A DNA stretch of 64,000 bases, from the NCBI RefSeq assembly GCF_005222835.1, contig NZ_STGA01000029.1:248001-312000 (forward strand). Reading direction: 5' to 3'. The notes under the pieces are model-generated. The model was not told where the DNA came from, did no database searches, and saw nothing but the letters and a program-made list of their open reading frames with translations. The stretch comes from Rhizobium sp. FKY42 (GTDB lineage: Bacteria > Pseudomonadota > Alphaproteobacteria > Rhizobiales > Rhizobiaceae). Numbering within the stretch: the stretch's first letter is position 1; each line of letters starts with the position of its first letter. Positions 2,191-27,505 of this stretch are shown one piece after another. Position numbers and translations under genes: made by a program.

Positions 2191-4266
2191 ATGAAGACCT
2201 CTCTCTGCGTGACAAGTCTGACGCTTTTATTGACGGCATCCGCGGTCGTTTGTGCGCCACTGCCGGATGGTCCGCTTCCGCATCCTGTTTCCCGGCCAAA
2301 AGACTTTCAGCCCGCCGCCGTGCCTGTTCCGGAAATTACCGGTTCCATTCCGCGCGCCACTCAGCCGCAGGATGCCGATGCCTCTCTTTCACTTCTTAAG
2401 CAGGGCCTGGATTCACTGTCCAACCGGGATATCACGTCGGCGCTTGCCGCCCGGGACGCGCTGACCCCCGGTTCGCTTGATCATCATCTGCTAACCTGGG
2501 CGATTGCAACGTCGGGTGCCCGTGGCGTCCCCTCCTCCGAGATTGCCGAAGCCCAACGGGAACTTACCGGCTGGCCGGGGCTTTCCAGGCTACGCGCCAA
2601 TTCCGAGCGATCGCTTTTCGCAGAAAATCCTCCGCCTGCTCAGGTGCTTGCAGCGTTTGGCAGCACACTTCCAGAAACGCCACAAGGTGCCATTATTCTT
2701 GCCAGATCGCTTGCGGCGCAGGGCAATGGACCAGCGGCTGCAAAAGTTCTGCGGCCATTCTGGATCGGCTATACGCTGGACAAGGATCTGGAGGATCAGA
2801 TCCTGCGGGAATTCGGCTCTGTGCTGACACCGTCCGATCATCGAGCGCGGATGGATTACCTCATGTACCGGGGACGTTCAGCGCAAGCACAGCGCTTCAG
2901 CGAACTCGGTCGCGCTGCATCTCTCTACAAAGCCTGGGTTGCGGTTACTGCGAACGCCAAGAACGCGCCTGCACTTCTGAGCAGCGTCGATCGGTCGCTG
3001 CAGGACGATTCCGCCTATCTCTTCGTGCGGATCGAACTCCTCCGCCGTCAGGATCAGTACGAGCAGGCGGCCGCTTTGCTTGCCCGTGCTCCCAAGGACC
3101 GCGGAGACATGGTGAACGCCAGCGAATGGTGGAACGAGCGCCGGATCATCGCACGGGGTCTGGCGGATAAAGGCGATTTCAGGTCTGCCTATCAGGTGGT
3201 CGCAGCCCACAACGCGAAGAGCCCGACAGATATCGTTGATGCCGAATTTCATGCGGGCTGGTATGCGTTGCGCGGCATGCGCGACCCAAAGGCTGCTTCC
3301 CAGCATTTCGAACGGATTCTGAAGGCCTCGAGCAGGCCTCTGTCGGCTTCGCGCGCCTGGTACTGGCTTGGCCGCTCTGCGGAAGCAGGTGGCCCAGGCA
3401 ATGCCAGCGACTACTTCTCGAAGGCCGCCGCCTATTCCGCGACCTTCTATGGACAACTTGCAGCCGCACGCCTCAATCGCCCTGCCCTCAATGTTTCCTA
3501 TCCATCGCCCAGCGCCCAGGATCGGCGGCTGTTCGAATCGCGGGAAGCGGTGCGCGCGATCGACAGGCTGGATCAGGCCGGGCATGTGAAAAGGGCGGAC
3601 GCTCTTTACAAGGCATTGGCCGACGAGATGACCAGCCCTGGGGAATTGGCGATTCTGGCGGCGCGCGCAGAGCGGAACAACAACCACGCCATGTCGCTTG
3701 AGATTGGCAAGTCTGCCTTCAATCGCGGGCTGGATGTCGCCGCATTGGCATTTCCGATCGGCGTCATCCCGCCCTCTGCCAATATCAATGGTTCCGGCAA
3801 GGCGCTTGCCTATTCCATCGCGCGGCAAGAAAGCGCTTTCAACCCCACCGCAGTTTCCGGCGCAGATGCGCGCGGACTACTGCAACTGCTACCCGGCACA
3901 GCAAAGGCTGTTGCCGGACGTCACGGCATGCAGTTTACGGCCGCCAAGCTAACGTCCGATCCGGGCTATAACGCAACCCTTGGCGCGCATTATCTGGGTG
4001 AGCAGATCGACGCCTTCGATGGCTCCTACATCATGACCTTTATTGCTTACAACGCAGGGCCGCGGCGCGTACCGGAGTGGATTGCGCGTTATGGAGATCC
4101 ACGCGGCAAGACCATCGACGAGGTCGTTGACTGGATAGAACGGATCCCCTTCCCGGAAACGCGCAACTACGTACAGCGAGTTATGGAAAACTATCAGGTC
4201 TACAAGGTTCGCCTGGGGCAGAAGGCCGACATAGTGGATGACCTCCGGTTTGGCCGCCGGTCATAG
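2191..4266 (+). CDS. slt: Soluble lytic murein transglycosylase
   Basis: This periplasmic enzyme cleaves the glycan strand of peptidoglycan with formation of 1,6-anhydro-muramic acid. I start it at the ATG at 2191, which gives 691 residues and a clean signal peptide (residues 1-22, ending SAVVCA). A TTG 27 bases upstream in frame is possible but would bury the signal. The long middle part is alpha-helical and superhelical as in Slt70. The C-terminal SLT domain holds the catalytic Glu547 in IARQESAFNPTAVS, then GLLQLLPGTA and the FIAYNAGPRRV segment that closes the active site. It is divergent from dapA. Confidence 0.93.
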   Translation: MKTSLCVTSLTLLLTASAVVCAPLPDGPLPHPVSRPKDFQPAAVPVPEITGSIPRATQPQDADASLSLLKQGLDSLSNRDITSALAARDALTPGSLDHHLLTWAIATSGARGVPSSEIAEAQRELTGWPGLSRLRANSERSLFAENPPPAQVLAAFGSTLPETPQGAIILARSLAAQGNGPAAAKVLRPFWIGYTLDKDLEDQILREFGSVLTPSDHRARMDYLMYRGRSAQAQRFSELGRAASLYKAWVAVTANAKNAPALLSSVDRSLQDDSAYLFVRIELLRRQDQYEQAAALLARAPKDRGDMVNASEWWNERRIIARGLADKGDFRSAYQVVAAHNAKSPTDIVDAEFHAGWYALRGMRDPKAASQHFERILKASSRPLSASRAWYWLGRSAEAGGPGNASDYFSKAAAYSATFYGQLAAARLNRPALNVSYPSPSAQDRRLFESREAVRAIDRLDQAGHVKRADALYKALADEMTSPGELAILAARAERNNNHAMSLEIGKSAFNRGLDVAALAFPIGVIPPSANINGSGKALAYSIARQESAFNPTAVSGADARGLLQLLPGTAKAVAGRHGMQFTAAKLTSDPGYNATLGAHYLGEQIDAFDGSYIMTFIAYNAGPRRVPEWIARYGDPRGKTIDEVVDWIERIPFPETRNYVQRVMENYQVYKVRLGQKADIVDDLRFGRRS

Positions 4267-4398
4267 CCATTGGAAGACACCTGCGCTTCACGGCCTGGTC
4301 CGGCTGCGAGAGGAGTGCCTTGCGGATTTCCGGGACCCGTGAAATTTTGCCTGACATCAGGATAGAATGCCGTTGCCACAGGCACAGGAGGGAAAAGC

Positions 4399-5286
4399 GT
4401 GCAACCAATCAGAAGCGACCTCCATTTCGCCACGTCAGCAGATGGAACACGCTTGGCGTACCACGTATATGCTCCCAACAACGCCGTTTCAGATGCGCTT
4501 CCGCTGGTCTGCCTGGCTGGTATCACCCGCAACAGCCGCGATTTCCGTGTATTTGCCGAAACTGTCGCCAGCGATCCGATCAAGCCACGCACCGTAATTT
4601 GCATCGATTATCGCGGACGCGGAGCCTCGGACCGAGCTGAAGATGCAGCAACCTATTCCATCCTCACGGAAGCGCAGGATTGCCTGTTGGTTCTGGATAC
4701 ACTCGGGATCACGCAAGCGATCTTCATAGGCACCTCGCGCGGCGGCCTTATTCTTCACATCCTCGCGCAACTTGCCCCAGAGCGAATAACAGCCGCGGTA
4801 TTGAACGATGTCGGTCCGGAACTCGGATTGGAAGGACTACAACTGATCCAGAGCTATCTCAGCCAAGGCAACACCAGCACCATTCCAGACTGGGCATCCG
4901 CAGCGCAACAGCTATCCCGCTTGCATGGAGCCGCCTTCCCTGCTCTTGAGCCGAGCGACTGGCAGGACATGGCTCACGCCATCTATACCGAACACGGCGG
5001 AAAAATTGTTCCTGACTGCGATCCAGCCATCCCGCTTGCGTTCGCATCCATTGATCTTGAACAATCTCTCCCTCACTTATGGTCGCAATTCGACCTGCTG
5101 AGCGACAGGCCGATGATGGTTGTTCGAGGCGAACATTCCACCTTGCTGACCGAGCCAATCGTAGCGTCCATGAAAGACCGGCATCCGAAACTGCGTGTCT
5201 TGACAGCTGCCGGCCAAGGTCACGCACCGCTTCTGCATAAGCCTCAAGTGCGCGATGATCTGGTAGCCTTTCTACGAACGGTTTAG
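4399..5286 (+). CDS. Alpha/beta hydrolase
   Basis: A 295-residue alpha/beta-hydrolase-fold protein. The nucleophile elbow is GTSRGG with Ser113, and the C-terminal catalytic histidine is His275 in GQGHAPLL. The HGG/oxyanion region is replaced by LVCLAGITRNSRDF (residues 34-47), typical of the lactonase and haloperoxidase-like branch. There is no signal peptide, so it is cytoplasmic. The substrate cannot be told from sequence. It follows the transglycosylase by 132 bases and could be cotranscribed with it. Confidence 0.85.
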   Translation: MQPIRSDLHFATSADGTRLAYHVYAPNNAVSDALPLVCLAGITRNSRDFRVFAETVASDPIKPRTVICIDYRGRGASDRAEDAATYSILTEAQDCLLVLDTLGITQAIFIGTSRGGLILHILAQLAPERITAAVLNDVGPELGLEGLQLIQSYLSQGNTSTIPDWASAAQQLSRLHGAAFPALEPSDWQDMAHAIYTEHGGKIVPDCDPAIPLAFASIDLEQSLPHLWSQFDLLSDRPMMVVRGEHSTLLTEPIVASMKDRHPKLRVLTAAGQGHAPLLHKPQVRDDLVAFLRTV

Positions 5287-5554
5287 TCGACTGATACGAA
5301 GCGTCATTGAAGACGACTCTTCGTATTCAATTTTCGAATTTCTCAAGCCACTGACGCAATCGAGATATTCGAAATCCCTCAAAGGTGAGGATGCGTCAGC
5401 ATCTTCGATGCCTTGGTGTGATTGAGTTTTCGCGCCAAATCGCCGCAAAGATGCAGTTCGCTCCCGGTGTTCAAGTCCTTGTTTGTCTCGTGTGGTACCC
5501 GCGAGACCAGCGCGCACTTCCGCAAATACGCATCTGCCAACCCTCCTCAAACAA

Positions 5555-5580
5555 GAAAACCCGCCTTTCGGCGGGTTTTC
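5555..5580 (-). terminator. Strong terminator of the first porin
   Basis: A perfect 11-bp stem (GAAAACCCGCC/GGCGGGTTTTC) with a 4-base loop, 22 bases after the porin stop. On the minus strand it ends in a T-rich run. The symmetrical A/T flanks mean it could also stop transcription arriving from the hydrolase side. Confidence 0.9.
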
Positions 5581-5602
5581 GATGTCTTATCGTCAGACGC
5601 AC

Positions 5603-6643
5603 TTAGAATGCGCGCTGCAGACGGAAGAAGCCAGTCCAGCTTTCCGCACCGTTGTCGATATCCTGGTAGTTGGCAGTAACCTTGGCCGAAAGGTTCGTGG
5701 CCAGCTGGTAATCTACGGTTACGCCAGCGCGCCATGCATCGCCACCGACAAAGTCGCCGACGCGGTTGGTCTGTACCTTCCAGAGGTACTGAGCAGCCGG
5801 GGTGATCGTGAACTTGTCGTTGAGCTTGATGGCGTACTCACCAGCGACAGTCCATTCGGACTCATCGTAGTAAGCATTTGCACCGCTAGCCCAGGCAGCG
5901 GAAAGGCCGAGCGTGCCAGGACCAAGGTCGGCATAGGCAATCGCGCGCAGAGCGCCGTTTTCCTGGTCGATGTCGTAAGAACCAATCAGGTTACCGCGGA
6001 TCGCACCTTCGGAAATGCCAACTGCGCCGCTGATGCCGACATTGTTGTTAGCCTTCGGAACGAAACCGTAAGCAACACCGAGGTTCGAACCAGCAGCATA
6101 GGCGCTTTCGAGTTCTTCAACCGCGACGCCAGCGAAGAAGGCGCCCGATGTGTAGGTGTAGCGGATTGCGTTGTACTGAGTCGTGTTGGACGACAGGAGG
6201 TCTGTTTCACCAGACAGATCGTCATCCCACCAGCTGTAGAAGAAACCGACCTTCAGGCCACCAACTTCGATGAAGGCCTGATCGACGTTTATGCCACGGC
6301 TGGTGCTGTTGTCAGCATTTCCGCGAAGGCCGATAAAGCCGCGCAGGGTGCCAAGCTCAGTATTGGAGCGAGCGTCGAACTCCAACTGACCACGCGAGAA
6401 AGCGTTCCAATCAGAGCGACCCGATGCATCACGACCGAAGTCTGTCTGGAAGCGAACATAGCCGCCGATCTTCAGGCAGGTTTCAGAACCAGGAATGTAG
6501 AAGAAGCCAGCACCGAATGCGTCGCAGACGCGAACATATTCCATTGGCTCCGGCTGAGCAGCAACGATAGCATCGGCAGCATTGGATGCCGAAGCAAAGG
6601 ACAGCGCAGCTACAGAGCTTGCGGCGAGAACCTTGAAGTTCAT
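5603..6643 (-). CDS. Rhizobiales-type outer membrane porin (copy 1)
   Basis: A 346-residue outer membrane beta-barrel of the alphaproteobacterial porin family (RopA/Omp2b type), forming general diffusion channels. The start is the ATG at 6643, which gives a signal peptide cleaved after ASNA (residue 22); the reading frame is open further upstream but without a plausible leader. After cleavage the protein begins ADAIVAAQPEPMEYVRVCD, with two cysteines (VCDAF and ETCLKIGG), and ends in Phe (RLQRAF) as barrel proteins do. A GAGGG ribosome binding site precedes the start. The second porin, 778 bases upstream on the same strand, is a paralogue of the same length; each has its own terminator, so they are separate units. 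Confidence 0.95.
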   Translation of the reverse strand: MNFKVLAASSVAALSFASASNAADAIVAAQPEPMEYVRVCDAFGAGFFYIPGSETCLKIGGYVRFQTDFGRDASGRSDWNAFSRGQLEFDARSNTELGTLRGFIGLRGNADNSTSRGINVDQAFIEVGGLKVGFFYSWWDDDLSGETDLLSSNTTQYNAIRYTYTSGAFFAGVAVEELESAYAAGSNLGVAYGFVPKANNNVGISGAVGISEGAIRGNLIGSYDIDQENGALRAIAYADLGPGTLGLSAAWASGANAYYDESEWTVAGEYAIKLNDKFTITPAAQYLWKVQTNRVGDFVGGDAWRAGVTVDYQLATNLSAKVTANYQDIDNGAESWTGFFRLQRAF

Positions 6644-23547: not shown

Positions 23548-24171
23548 TCAGGCGCGGGCTTCCTGAATGACGACAACCTTGTCGCCGACTTTCACACGGG
23601 AATAGAGATCCACGACGTCGTGGTTCATCATGCGGATGCAGCCACTCGACATGGCATGACCGATCGATTCAGGCTGATTTGTACCATGGATACGGAAGTG
23701 GGTGTCGCCACCGCCGCGGTAGAGATACATTGCGCGTGCGCCAAGCGGATTATTGGGGCCACCCGGCATTCCACCGGCAAGCTTCTTGTAACGGGCTTCT
23801 CTGCGCTGCATGTTGGCGGTCGGCGTCCAGGTCGGCCATTCGGCCTTGCGACCAACATAGGCATTACCGGCCAGCGCCAGACCCGCCCGGCCCACACCGA
23901 CGCCGTAGCGCATGGCGCGACCGTTATCCAGCACGTAGTAGAGACGACGCGCGGGCGTATCCACCACGATCGTTCCCGGCTTGTGTTCCGTTACATAGGC
24001 CACTTCGGTCCGGCGCAGTTCCGGCTTGATCTTGTCGAGCGGCACTTCCTTTAGGGGATGCAATTCGTTCGGCCGGGCCGAGTAATCTGCCTGCTGGGTT
24101 CCGGAGGTGGAGGCGCATCCGGCAAGGAGAAGCGGAAGCCCGATCAGCAGTCCGCGGCGCGAGATCGACAT
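23548..24171 (-). CDS. L,D-transpeptidase (YkuD) lipoprotein
   Basis: A 207-residue periplasmic enzyme that makes or changes cross-links in peptidoglycan or attaches proteins to it. Residues 1-19 are a lipoprotein signal with the lipobox LLLAGC (Cys19). The YkuD domain begins at TIVVDTPARRLYYV and carries the catalytic motif from His162 (RIHGTNQPESIG) to Cys178 in SSGCIRM. The start at 24171 (AAGGAC upstream) puts the lipid signal at the N terminus; an extension upstream would spoil it. It is downstream of the channel gene by 78 bases on the same strand and may be cotranscribed. Confidence 0.92.
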   Translation of the reverse strand: MSISRRGLLIGLPLLLAGCASTSGTQQADYSARPNELHPLKEVPLDKIKPELRRTEVAYVTEHKPGTIVVDTPARRLYYVLDNGRAMRYGVGVGRAGLALAGNAYVGRKAEWPTWTPTANMQRREARYKKLAGGMPGGPNNPLGARAMYLYRGGGDTHFRIHGTNQPESIGHAMSSGCIRMMNHDVVDLYSRVKVGDKVVVIQEARA

Positions 24172-24249
24172 GAATGTGTCCTTATTGCGGTCATCTTGAG
24201 ATGAGTCGCAAGTTACGGACATTATGGTTAATGAAGCACTAATTCAGGC

Positions 24250-25320
24250 TCAGGCAAGCGAACGCAGCGTGACGCAGATGCAGATGATGGTGAACATCAG
24301 CGGCATGACATACCTGACCACACGGCGAACCTCGCTGGACAGGAAGGGATAGGCCGAGCGTCCCGGAAAGCGCTCACTTTCCATGAACAGATCGATCAAA
24401 AGCGCCAGGATCAGATAGAAATATCCGATCGAGATCATGAATGCGATCGGCGACGTGACTGACATGCTGCCGGGGAAGCTTGCCTCGAAGGTGAAGCTCA
24501 ACGCTGCCAGCGCCAGAAGCGCCGAATAGGTGACGCCCGTTTTGTCGCCGATCAATCCTTTCGGCTGCCACAGGATGAACAAGGATACAGACAGGACGGC
24601 GATGAACGGGATAAAGATGCGCAGGAAATAGCGTGGCCATTTGCGATCGATGGCAACCTCTGCCGTCAGCTTCGCAAAGGGCCTTGCACTCCACCCATAA
24701 AACTGGGCCGTCGTGAAGGACAGGTTTTTCGCGCTCCAGTCCGAGGCCGATAGCTGGGGCGGTAGTTCGGAGAGCTGGCGATCCTGAAAGTCCTGCACGA
24801 AGACCACATCATCAGCCGGATAGTACTGGGAGACGAAGGCTAGCCTCACATGCTGCTGATCGAAGGGAAAAGCCGATAGGTCGCGGGCAAAACGGAAGCT
24901 CCCCTCAAGCCTGCGCATCGACGTCACCTCGCCATTGCTGCGGATCGACAGAGCTTCGAGCTGGAGCGTTTCGTCTCCGCTGCGATTCTCGATCTCGACA
25001 GCCGGGTTCCAGATCGTGGCGAGCTTCGCAGTGGCTTCAGCGCCGGTGAAATCCTGCCGGTCGCGACCGAACTGAATGGCATTGAACTGAAGTGCAGGAT
25101 CTTTCCAGCGCTGCTGAACTTCCACGACCAGTTGCGCATCGCCGGTGGTCTCATCGATCTTGAGAATATCAAGAACACGGACAACCAGATGGATCTGCAA
25201 GGGGCGCTGTACGCCTTGCGGAAAAGGCTGACGTCCAGTCCCCTCCTGCGCAGAAGCACCGAACGATCCGAGCAGGATGACGAGATACGCAACGACAAGC
25301 CGAAGGAACACATTGCACAT
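24250..25320 (-). CDS. Pentameric ligand-gated ion channel homologue (Cys-loop/Pro-loop receptor family)
   Basis: A 356-residue protein with the full architecture of prokaryotic pentameric channels such as GLIC and ELIC. A signal peptide (1-24) is followed by an extracytoplasmic beta-sandwich with TIWNPAVEIEN (residues 102-112, the WxP-type motif) and SAFPFDQQHVRL (149-160), the conserved FPFD loop. As in other bacterial members the two loop cysteines are absent. Four membrane helices follow: M1 about 229-251 after RKWPRYFLR, pore-lining M2 about 259-279 ending in FEASFP, M3 about 291-311, and M4 about 335-353. M1 is preceded by the usual aromatic/basic coupling segment. It begins 3 bases after the stop of the double-Cache gene, with GGAG inside the end of that gene. 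Ligand and ion selectivity are unknown. Confidence 0.85.
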   Translation of the reverse strand: MCNVFLRLVVAYLVILLGSFGASAQEGTGRQPFPQGVQRPLQIHLVVRVLDILKIDETTGDAQLVVEVQQRWKDPALQFNAIQFGRDRQDFTGAEATAKLATIWNPAVEIENRSGDETLQLEALSIRSNGEVTSMRRLEGSFRFARDLSAFPFDQQHVRLAFVSQYYPADDVVFVQDFQDRQLSELPPQLSASDWSAKNLSFTTAQFYGWSARPFAKLTAEVAIDRKWPRYFLRIFIPFIAVLSVSLFILWQPKGLIGDKTGVTYSALLALAALSFTFEASFPGSMSVTSPIAFMISIGYFYLILALLIDLFMESERFPGRSAYPFLSSEVRRVVRYVMPLMFTIICICVTLRSLA

Positions 25321-25323
25321 GGT

Positions 25324-26430
25324 TCAAGGCTCCCCGGCCCGGTCCCGTCTGGTGGACATGGCATCGGAGACGGCTTTTTGCAGATCGCGGAACTCCTTCA
25401 GTCCGCTGGTCGACTGCGATGTGGCGGCATCATCAGGCGAAGCCTTCACCCGGACCGCCAGATCCTTCAGGGGCCTGATCACGGCTGCGCGCACTGTGCT
25501 CATGAAGATCGCTGTCACGATCAGGAGACCGGCCAGAAAGACCGACCCGATCGTGACCAGTGAACGGTTGTAGTAGCTTTCCAGCGATCCGAAATCACTG
25601 ACAGTGAGGATCGTTCCGATCATGTTGCCGCTATAGTCGATCAGCGGGCGACCCTGAACGGTCAGATCCCGGTCCCCCAGTCGATGGAAGAAAAGAAGCT
25701 CGCTGCGGGAAAGCTGAACCTTGCCCGCGCCGAGAATGCCTTCAAACAGGCTCTTGTCGGTGGCGGCATCAAGAACAAGACCATTGGCGGACACGGCAGC
25801 ACTGCCCACATCTTTCAGATAGCGACGATCAAGCACGAGAGCGAAATCACTGCCGCTGGCAGCCTTGGCGAGATCGGCAAGCGCCTGCAGATCGACGCCA
25901 ACCTCCACCGTTCCGATGAAGTTGCTTCCACTTGTGTCGAAGACCGGCGACACCGCGCGCAGGCTCAAGCCCCGCACCCCAAGCTCCAGCCCCTTCTGCG
26001 TCTGCCGATCGTGATTGGCAGCCACCACCATGGGACGGAAGGTGGAAAGATCCTGCCCGAAATTCTGCGGTTCCCACACGCGCAAGAAAGACTTCATCGA
26101 CGCATCATGGAAATGCACCACGCTGACGCCCGCCAGCCGTGCAAGCCGCTCGAACATTGGCTTGGCATAGGCCTGAAGCTCGCTGCGAGAACCCGCGGCC
26201 AGATGCGCACGGATTGAAGGATCAGCGGCCAGAAGCTCTGAATGCGTTGCGGAAAGAATGGCGGCCTGATCCATCGTGGTCGAAAAAACCACCGAGGTCT
26301 GATCGATTTCACGTTGGCGGGCGTCGGTCAGAAGTGCCTGCTGGTCGGCAATCATCAGCCAACCGCCTAGAAGCAGCACGAGACCGACGCAGGCCGAGGA
26401 AACGAAGGCGAGAAAACGATCGAGCGACAT
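25324..26430 (-). CDS. Membrane-anchored double-Cache sensor protein without output domain
   Basis: A 368-residue protein with a helix at residues 8-28, a periplasmic region of about 260 residues, a second helix at about 291-311 and a short cytoplasmic tail (312-368). The periplasmic part has the signature of the dCache_3 type seen in chemoreceptors and diguanylate cyclases: VVHFHDASMKSFLRVWEP, GQDLSTFRPMVV, GLELGVRGLSLRAVSPVF and FIGTVEVGVD (about residues 104-179). The tail has a HAMP-like beginning (IRPLKDLAVRVK) but no kinase, GGDEF or methyl-accepting domain. It is the first gene of a tight pair with a pentameric channel homologue, which makes it a candidate ligand-binding partner for that channel. 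Confidence 0.82.
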   Translation of the reverse strand: MSLDRFLAFVSSACVGLVLLLGGWLMIADQQALLTDARQREIDQTSVVFSTTMDQAAILSATHSELLAADPSIRAHLAAGSRSELQAYAKPMFERLARLAGVSVVHFHDASMKSFLRVWEPQNFGQDLSTFRPMVVAANHDRQTQKGLELGVRGLSLRAVSPVFDTSGSNFIGTVEVGVDLQALADLAKAASGSDFALVLDRRYLKDVGSAAVSANGLVLDAATDKSLFEGILGAGKVQLSRSELLFFHRLGDRDLTVQGRPLIDYSGNMIGTILTVSDFGSLESYYNRSLVTIGSVFLAGLLIVTAIFMSTVRAAVIRPLKDLAVRVKASPDDAATSQSTSGLKEFRDLQKAVSDAMSTRRDRAGEP

Positions 26431-26582: not shown

Positions 26583-27356
26583 TCAATCTTCTTCGCAAGG
26601 CCATTCAACTGGAATGGTCAGACCTTGGGGCAACTTCGTCTTGCTGTTCCCGCACGACAGAGCGATTTGATCCTGCTTGAGACCCGTCGCCTGGCTGAGG
26701 TCTACGCCCTCGAAACGCGTGAGAAACAGGAACGCATTGGCGAAATCGACCGGCCCCTTCATGGAAGCATTTTTGAACGAGGCTCGTGCAAGATTTGCCA
26801 TGGCAAAATGTGTATCGCCCAGTTCCGCACCCTTGAAGACTGCCCGTCCAAGTTCCGCCTTGGTGAAATCCGCTCCCAAAAGCGTCGCTTCTGTAAAATT
26901 GGCGCGCTGCATCTCGGCCATGGTGAATTTGGTCTGGGTCGCCATTACGCTTCCGAAGTCGCTGCGATAGCCCTCGACCTTCTGAAGCGAGGCGCTGCTC
27001 AGATCTGCTTTGACGAAGGATGTGCGAATGATGGCTGCCTTGGTGAGATCGGCACCAACCAGCTTGCTGCGGCTGAAATCGGAATTGCTGAGATCCGCCT
27101 CCGCCATCTTCGCCTTTTCGAAATTGCTGTCCTTCAGCATCAGCATTCGCTTCTTGCAGTCAGCCCAGTTGACTTCCGGGCCTGCATCCGTGCGGCAGCG
27201 GCCACCGCCAAATCCGTTATGCTTGTTGGGGAATAGCAATACCAACCCACCCGCGATCACGATGATCGGGATGAAAATCTTCATCTTGCTCTGGCGGATT
27301 CGACTCCAGGCTCTCGACCAGAAGGACTTCGGTTTCCGCTTGACGGGTGCGTTCAT
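26583..27356 (-). CDS. Membrane-anchored pentapeptide-repeat protein
   Basis: A 257-residue protein with a basic N terminus, one membrane helix (about residues 26-43, IFIPIIVIAGGLVLLFP) and then a long run of pentapeptide repeats of the A(D/N)Lxx type, for example AEADLSNSDFSRSKLVGADLTKA and ANFTEATLLGADFTKAELGRAVF. Such repeats fold as a right-handed quadrilateral beta-helix. With the positive segment inside, the helix domain should lie in the periplasm, with four cysteines near its two ends. The start at 27356 is an ATG; a GTG at 27383 in frame is possible. Function is not predictable from the fold. Confidence 0.8.
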   Translation of the reverse strand: MNAPVKRKPKSFWSRAWSRIRQSKMKIFIPIIVIAGGLVLLFPNKHNGFGGGRCRTDAGPEVNWADCKKRMLMLKDSNFEKAKMAEADLSNSDFSRSKLVGADLTKAAIIRTSFVKADLSSASLQKVEGYRSDFGSVMATQTKFTMAEMQRANFTEATLLGADFTKAELGRAVFKGAELGDTHFAMANLARASFKNASMKGPVDFANAFLFLTRFEGVDLSQATGLKQDQIALSCGNSKTKLPQGLTIPVEWPCEED

Positions 27357-27505
27357 GGTCTTGCCAGTGCACTTTTCCAACACAATTGCGTCAGTCTTAG
27401 CGTGGTTACCCCTTAGCCGAAAGAGGAAAGCGATGCGTCTCGACCGCTTTCCCTGCTCACTGGCTGTTCGCTCAACGAAATCGCTGACGTGCGGTTCCGC
27501 AGCCT

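Follow-up and report, generated by a model that had tools for sequence, protein, structure and literature searches.

A pentameric ligand-gated channel gene and a stand-alone dCache_3 sensor gene form a conserved bacterial pair

The channel and Cache genes of the locus

The locus lies in a 64,000-nucleotide stretch of Rhizobium sp. FKY42 (NZ_STGA01000029.1, positions 248,001 to 312,000), referred to here in its entirety as the window. Two minus-strand genes, the Cache gene in front and the channel gene behind it, carry the following features; clades I and II are defined further below.

24250..25320, minus strand: pentameric ligand-gated channel (pLGIC) gene, 356 aa (ORF; Neur_chan_LBD; GLIC/DeCLIC similarity; predicted fold)
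24478..24543, minus strand: channel M2 pore helix, residues 260-281 (AlphaFold2 helix, alignment)
24640..25212, minus strand: channel periplasmic ligand-binding-type domain, residues 37-227 (Pfam span)
24691..24696, minus strand: channel Gly-Trp, residues 209-210, in the loop-C region between W195 and the pre-M1 R226 (alignment)
24859..24870, minus strand: channel FPFD, residues 151-154, the Pro-loop (sequence, alignment)
25255..25311, minus strand: channel N-terminal hydrophobic segment, residues 4-22, probable signal peptide (hydropathy)
25321..25323, minus strand: 3-base junction from the Cache stop to the channel start (ORFs)
25324..26430, minus strand: gene of the Cache partner, 368 aa, a membrane protein with two TM helices and a periplasmic dCache_3 domain (ORF; Pfam; AlphaFold2)
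25327..25503, minus strand: cytoplasmic tail of the Cache protein (310-368), HAMP-like and without an output domain (hydropathy, model, weak profile matches)
25330..25335, minus strand: GGGGAG, likely ribosome binding site for the channel, within the Cache gene (read from sequence)
25504..25560, minus strand: Cache protein TM2 core, residues 291-309 (hydropathy)
25594..26316, minus strand: dCache_3 sensor domain, residues 39-279 (Pfam span)
25957..25959, minus strand: Cache R158 (58/58 in clade I, Phe in 28/29 of clade II)
26035..26037, minus strand: Cache R132 (86/87 aligned partners)
26080..26082, minus strand: Cache R117 (invariant in 87/87 aligned partners; by eye at the pocket-Arg place of DcuS/CitA)
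26350..26406, minus strand: Cache protein TM1 core, residues 9-27 (hydropathy; continuous helix 3-69 in the model)

The preliminary description had read the 356-residue product as a Cys-loop-type channel with an FPFD loop and an M1-M4 layout, and profile and fold searches bear this out. The protein matches Neur_chan_LBD in Pfam (E 1.4e-19), where Neur_chan_memb is not reported; the NCBIfam models LIC and LGIC_1 are matched below their cut-offs. Its nearest PDB sequences are GLIC variants (best E 1.6e-13) and DeCLIC (3.5e-13). The fold of the AlphaFold2 model (mean pLDDT 89.4, from 87 sequences) resembles glycine and GABA-A receptors and DeCLIC, and four transmembrane helices (229-251, 260-281, 291-314 and 327-355) follow the FPFD at 151-154. 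By analogy with its family, the channel is probably a homopentamer.

The front gene had been described as coding for a two-helix dCache_3 protein without an output domain, and this assignment is likewise established by profile. The protein matches dCache_3 with E 1.1e-29 (104.1 bits against a gathering cut-off of 25.7), contains two hydrophobic segments, and shows no kinase, cyclase or MCP domain at cut-off in Pfam or NCBIfam, the NCBIfam kinase matches lying far below. Queried alone, it has no significant sequence match in the PDB. In the AlphaFold2 model (mean pLDDT 93.8), a long helix at the N-terminus is followed by two Cache modules, another long helix in the membrane and a short tail that is also helical. 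The 59 residues after TM2 give weak profile matches to NarQ and HAMP structures (E 0.27-0.84).

The two genes are tightly coupled. The 3-base gap (25321..25323) and the siting of the channel's likely ribosome binding site within the sensor gene (GGGGAG at 25330-25335, as read from the sequence) were both noted in the preliminary description and stand. Cache stop and channel start overlap in 78 of 92 distinct pairs (108 less identical channels, with L132 left out), 63 of them by 4 nt and 15 by 1 nt, when the channel start is taken as the in-frame start codon closest to the Cache stop, a choice that favours overlaps. Another 12 pairs, the window's with its 3 bases among them, are 1-4 nt apart, which brings 90 of 92 within 4 nt; L027 and L070 have distant or doubtful channel starts. 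As a control on the choice of start, 80 of 92 pairs have the channel in the frame that permits an overlap, against an expected one third. The overlapping start codons are ATG in 58 pairs, GTG in 20 and never TTG, and 90 of 92 channels with starts so chosen have a hydrophobic stretch near the N-terminus. Cache and channel occupy separate frames in all 109 paired loci read. A scan of consensus promoters and terminators gave no more matches than in shuffled sequence.

The flanks of the pair vary between loci. A search for a third operon member found no other gene family in more than 11 of 80 loci, a crude test because the longest-ORF caller lets antisense ORFs displace genes; the same caller recovered the Cache family in 65 of these loci and the channel family in 62. 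In the window, an ORF that by eye resembles an L,D-transpeptidase-like lipoprotein (23548-24222, minus strand) lies directly downstream of the channel gene and could share its transcript, and another ORF of that strand (26583-27383), upstream of the pair, resembles by eye a pentapeptide-repeat membrane protein. At L069, L070, L071, L077 and L105 the channel gene is followed by a same-strand ORF family that looks CorA/ZntB-like by eye.

Distribution and co-inheritance of the pair

How widely does the pair occur? The window's genome holds one copy of the channel. Matches to the channel protein were found in 9 of 57 genomes of the genus (10 places), 13 of 297 of the family (14 places), 32 of 297 of the order and 4 of 337 of the class, where the window's genome and a relative are shared between samples. 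The match scores are bimodal. At all 30 distinct strong channel places in the genus, family and order samples (E 1.1e-20 or better), the thirtieth of which is a second copy in genome G412, a Cache gene lies directly upstream on the same strand. In a phylum-wide sample of 398 genomes, 29 channel places occur in 25 genomes, and the Cache gene adjoins the three that score E < 1e-100 and no others; one of the three is new. A search of plasmids with the channel protein gave no match.

A GTDB-wide scan of 84,980 species genomes used a channel profile whose only pattern was the M2 motif and which held no Cache information; it can find only channels that bear the M2 motif of the clade, and it returned at least 80 loci, several of them in genomes already present in the earlier samples. 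Among the loci listed, a same-strand Cache gene lies upstream in 80 of 80, across four phyla and with channel identity down to 21%. Adjacency tabulated across genomes is therefore conserved far beyond close relatives. The named records with the pair belong to Alpha-, Beta- and Gammaproteobacteria, Myxococcota, Acidobacteriota and Verrucomicrobiota. Nine of the listed loci lie outside Pseudomonadota; eight of these, all except L110, are labelled MAG, and their phylum depends on binning. Two of the listed loci are imperfect. The pair at L118 is cut by a contig end, and at L132 of Rhizobium sp. RCAM05350 (about 3887-5992) Cache and channel are each split over several frames, as if by joint decay or by assembly errors.

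The association also holds in reverse. When the Cache protein was searched against the 57 genus genomes (cut-off E 1e-10), the ten places with E < 1e-20 were exactly the ten channel places. The next matches begin at E 1.7e-17 and, with the exception of one 264-aa frame, lie in frames of chemoreceptor or kinase size (733-835 aa). In the 297 family genomes, a sample that overlaps that of the genus, a Cache profile (threshold E 1e-40, with no more than six candidates per genome scored) found 13 places with E < 1e-100, which are exactly the 13 clade-channel places; the only two other matches (E 4e-59 and 4e-51) lie in frames of 719 and 724 aa. As a separate observation, genome G026 carries a truncated orphan dCache_3 frame of 264 aa (L144/L187) that groups with non-partner Caches, and no channel match was found within 6.5 kb around L144.

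As a negative control, 59 weaker pLGIC-like places were considered (35 from the family, order and class samples and 26 from the phylum sample, two of them in both sets). None has a Cache-profile match with E 0.1 or better in its vicinity, with at least 900 bases upstream of the channel frame in view at 53 of the 59 and the contig or stretch ending too early at six; the control was rechecked with 32 longer stretches. Ten proteins were scanned for fused domains, and the two fused unpaired channels tested, L044 and L050, carry Peripla_BP_6. Fused pLGIC frames of this kind, of roughly 710-880 aa, occur in the order and phylum samples and represent a separate way of adding a sensor.

We compared 52 representative paired channels with 25 unpaired ones and GLIC. 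The paired channels form one side of a branch with an SH-aLRT of 100, in a tree made by a quick method with several long outgroup branches. Likewise, the partner Caches fall on one side of a branch that separates them from 12 other dCache_3 proteins of the genus (93, a value not starred). Both trees divide the 52 pairs identically into 31 (clade I) and 21 (clade II). Clade I, to which the window's pair belongs, is mostly alphaproteobacterial, with the addition of Acidovorax; clade II spans several phyla. The separate trees of the pairs share 27 of 49 splits, and there is no conflict among the 20 x 20 splits supported at 95 or more. Channel and Cache tree distances correlate with r 0.92 overall, 0.93 within clade I and 0.85 within clade II, and in each clade none of 500 permutations reached the observed value. 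Any two genes that always move as one would show such congruence, and it speaks for co-inheritance and co-divergence, not for contact. The gene pair is old, tightly coupled and apparently obligate.

Several positions distinguish or unite the paired channels. Of the 52 paired channels, 50 have a Gly-Trp in the loop-C region, versus 0 of 26 unpaired ones at the same columns; one unpaired channel has GW at another place between W195 and R226. Two further candidates for a mark of the clade were dropped: the helix insertion between W72 and W104, since that spacing also occurs in 7 of 26 unpaired channels, and residues of M2, since F276 occurs in 13 of 26 unpaired channels and A270 in GLIC. Judged from the alignment, Gly-Trp is the sole clade signature that we claim. 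The pre-M1 R226 and the M1 residue P238 are kept in all 52 paired channels and D154 in 51, residues that we regard as gating residues. The position before M2 is acidic (D/E) in all eight of the commonest triplets listed, which account for at least 30 of the 52. In pLGICs, an acidic residue at this place points to cation selectivity, and the paired channels probably conduct cations.

What the Cache partner may do

What does a sensor without an output domain contribute to a channel? The earlier proposal of a functional sensor-channel pair draws strong support from the adjacency at 30 of 30 and 80 of 80 listed loci and from the reverse search (13 of 13). The Cache proteins themselves supply the main argument for regulation of the channel. 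The protein ends no more than 25 residues past TM2 (actually 7-13) in 29 of 91 measurable partners, which leaves no room for cytoplasmic output. The 11 short-tail representatives form one group on both trees and L015, with 26 residues, is placed elsewhere, so the tail was shortened more than once; it is dispensable in part of the clade. A tail-less Cache would have to signal through the membrane or the periplasm, where its constant companion is the channel, and regulation of the channel is the inference that we draw. We consider it fairly probable that the two proteins make up an obligate receptor of two subunits, with the Cache protein binding a metabolite and changing channel gating. The channel would form the pore, and the Cache protein would be anchored beside it by its two helices. 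On binding of a small periplasmic metabolite, a conformational change of the Cache domain would be passed to the channel within the periplasm or the membrane, thereby altering gating. Both the physical complex and the idea of the preliminary description, that the Cache protein gates, assembles or localises the channel, are inferred.

The conservation of the operon can also arise for partners without contact. That the genes are ordinary neighbours, adjacent through close relatedness, has nothing in its favour beyond the congruent trees of co-moving genes, and the 80 of 80 listed loci in four phyla, with channel identity down to 21% and varying flanks, make it extremely improbable. The HAMP-like longer tail retained by 62 of 91 partners, L015 included, could talk to another protein; together with the weak NarQ/HAMP profile matches, it is what recommends an independent two-TM receptor that signals elsewhere, the channel being merely co-regulated. 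We regard this as very unlikely, given the 29 partners that lack space for a cytoplasmic output and the fact that no partner-type Cache was found without the channel in the 57 genus and 297 family genomes (overlapping samples).

Two other readings keep the proteins in one pathway. In the model of Tasneem et al. 2005, as given in the available part of that paper (PMC549065), the Cache protein would capture and concentrate a ligand that acts on the channel's own ligand-binding domain. Other pLGICs with fused periplasmic binding domains, such as the Peripla_BP_6 of L044 and L050, are in keeping with it. Against this stands the membrane anchoring of both proteins, and Cache sensors are known to switch conformation rather than to shuttle ligands; we hold capture to be quite unlikely. 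Somewhat better placed, though still unlikely, is an assembly, stability or targeting subunit comparable to alpha2delta of calcium channels, with sensing left to the channel's orthosteric site. The Cache gene precedes the channel gene and is coupled to it, the Cache protein can do without its cytoplasmic tail, and, in the portions of the papers available to us, alpha2delta carries dCache domains and augments CaV expression and function (PMC9901441, PMC9016415). A pure chaperone need not keep R117 in 87 of 87 partners, R132 in 86 of 87 and R158 in 58 of 58 of clade I, although these residues could be structural. D127 and N139 are kept as well, in 86 and 85 of 87 aligned partners.

If the Cache protein is the sensing subunit of a receptor, what might it bind? 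By eye, and not from coordinates, R117 and R158 seem to fall at the places of DcuS R107 and R147. The available text on DcuS names R107, H110 and R147 as pocket residues (PMC12772337). The column taken as the DcuS His position, again by eye and not by coordinates, is mostly R, D, E or K in clade I, and the pocket His is not kept. Arginines at both pocket-Arg places make a carboxylate plausible for clade I, and clade II should differ. In the two-subunit reading, the clade-I Cache proteins, the window's included, would most plausibly bind a carboxylate. A single ligand common to the whole paired clade was considered and rejected: with Phe in place of R158 in 28 of the 29 rows of clade II, the same ligand cannot fit every pair.

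We further propose, tentatively and as a possibility that we would not yet favour, that a pLGIC lineage handed ligand recognition to a separate sensor. A Cache dimer would dock on the channel ectodomain, and the loop-C Gly-Trp would couple the two, replacing the capping seen with neurotransmitters; the result would be an auxiliary-subunit-gated heteromeric receptor in at least four bacterial phyla.

We know of no natural stimulus or role for most bacterial pLGICs, which are relatives and structural models of neurotransmitter receptors. If channel and Cache protein form one receptor, the ligand of the Cache domain would offer a direct route to the physiological stimulus, and work on such channels expressed without the partner would overlook what regulates them. 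Such a receptor would also provide, for structural work, a bacterial counterpart of Cache-bearing channel auxiliary subunits.

Relation to known systems

The channel is similar in sequence to GLIC and DeCLIC, with a fold match to DeCLIC, and GLIC shares R226, P238 and FPFD-type positions. Its likeness to ELIC is that of the pLGIC family. GLIC itself lies outside the paired clade and is without the loop-C Gly-Trp. For the Cache protein, the best domain-level fit is the Cache fold of CitA (1p0z; 127 columns, rmsd 1.8 A, 21% identity, target-normalised TM 0.83). DctB (3by9, 3e4o) is matched as a double Cache in a different domain arrangement, with rmsd above 8, and DctB and Mlp24 match the Cache model as double Caches at 6-10 A. 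Unlike the sensor kinases CitA, DcuS and DctB, the partner has no kinase, and its sequence similarity to them is weak (profile E 0.004-0.31). Similarly, alpha2delta is an auxiliary ion-channel protein that is associated with the membrane and bears Cache domains; it contains dCache_1 where the present protein has dCache_3, and its channel is unrelated, so that the resemblance is an analogy only.

Extra periplasmic sensor modules on a pLGIC core are known from fusions, including the PBP-I and Cache/MCP-N fusions described in the accessible part of Tasneem et al. 2005 (PMC549065) and the N-terminal domain of DeCLIC. Here, in contrast, the sensor is a separate dCache_3 membrane protein, encoded in its own frame in 109 paired loci. 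The preliminary description had called a separate Cache partner little described. The arrangement is indeed scarce in the literature: among the papers listed from open-access sources, which largely leave subscription journals outside their coverage, the pairing was found only in PMC549065, with no later study, and a term search of the main text of a 2016 inventory (PMC4795631) found no mention of Cache, operon, fusion or periplasmic. It had nevertheless been reported in 2005 for one genome: the same accessible part of PMC549065 gives one predicted operon of an ART-LGIC and a stand-alone Cache protein in Rhodopseudomonas and suggests that the proteins cooperate, perhaps in chemotaxis.

The two-gene arrangement of that operon is the one described here, and the three Rhodopseudomonas loci L078, L081 and L082 are among the present pairs, L078 falling inside the paired clade of the channel tree. 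Where the accessible 2005 text has one genome, the present pairs extend over four phyla, with reciprocal pairing, overlapping codons, a single clade and sequence signatures. The first sighting is thus that of 2005, and what is new here is the breadth of the pair, its obligacy and reciprocity, the tail-less sensors and the loop-C signature.
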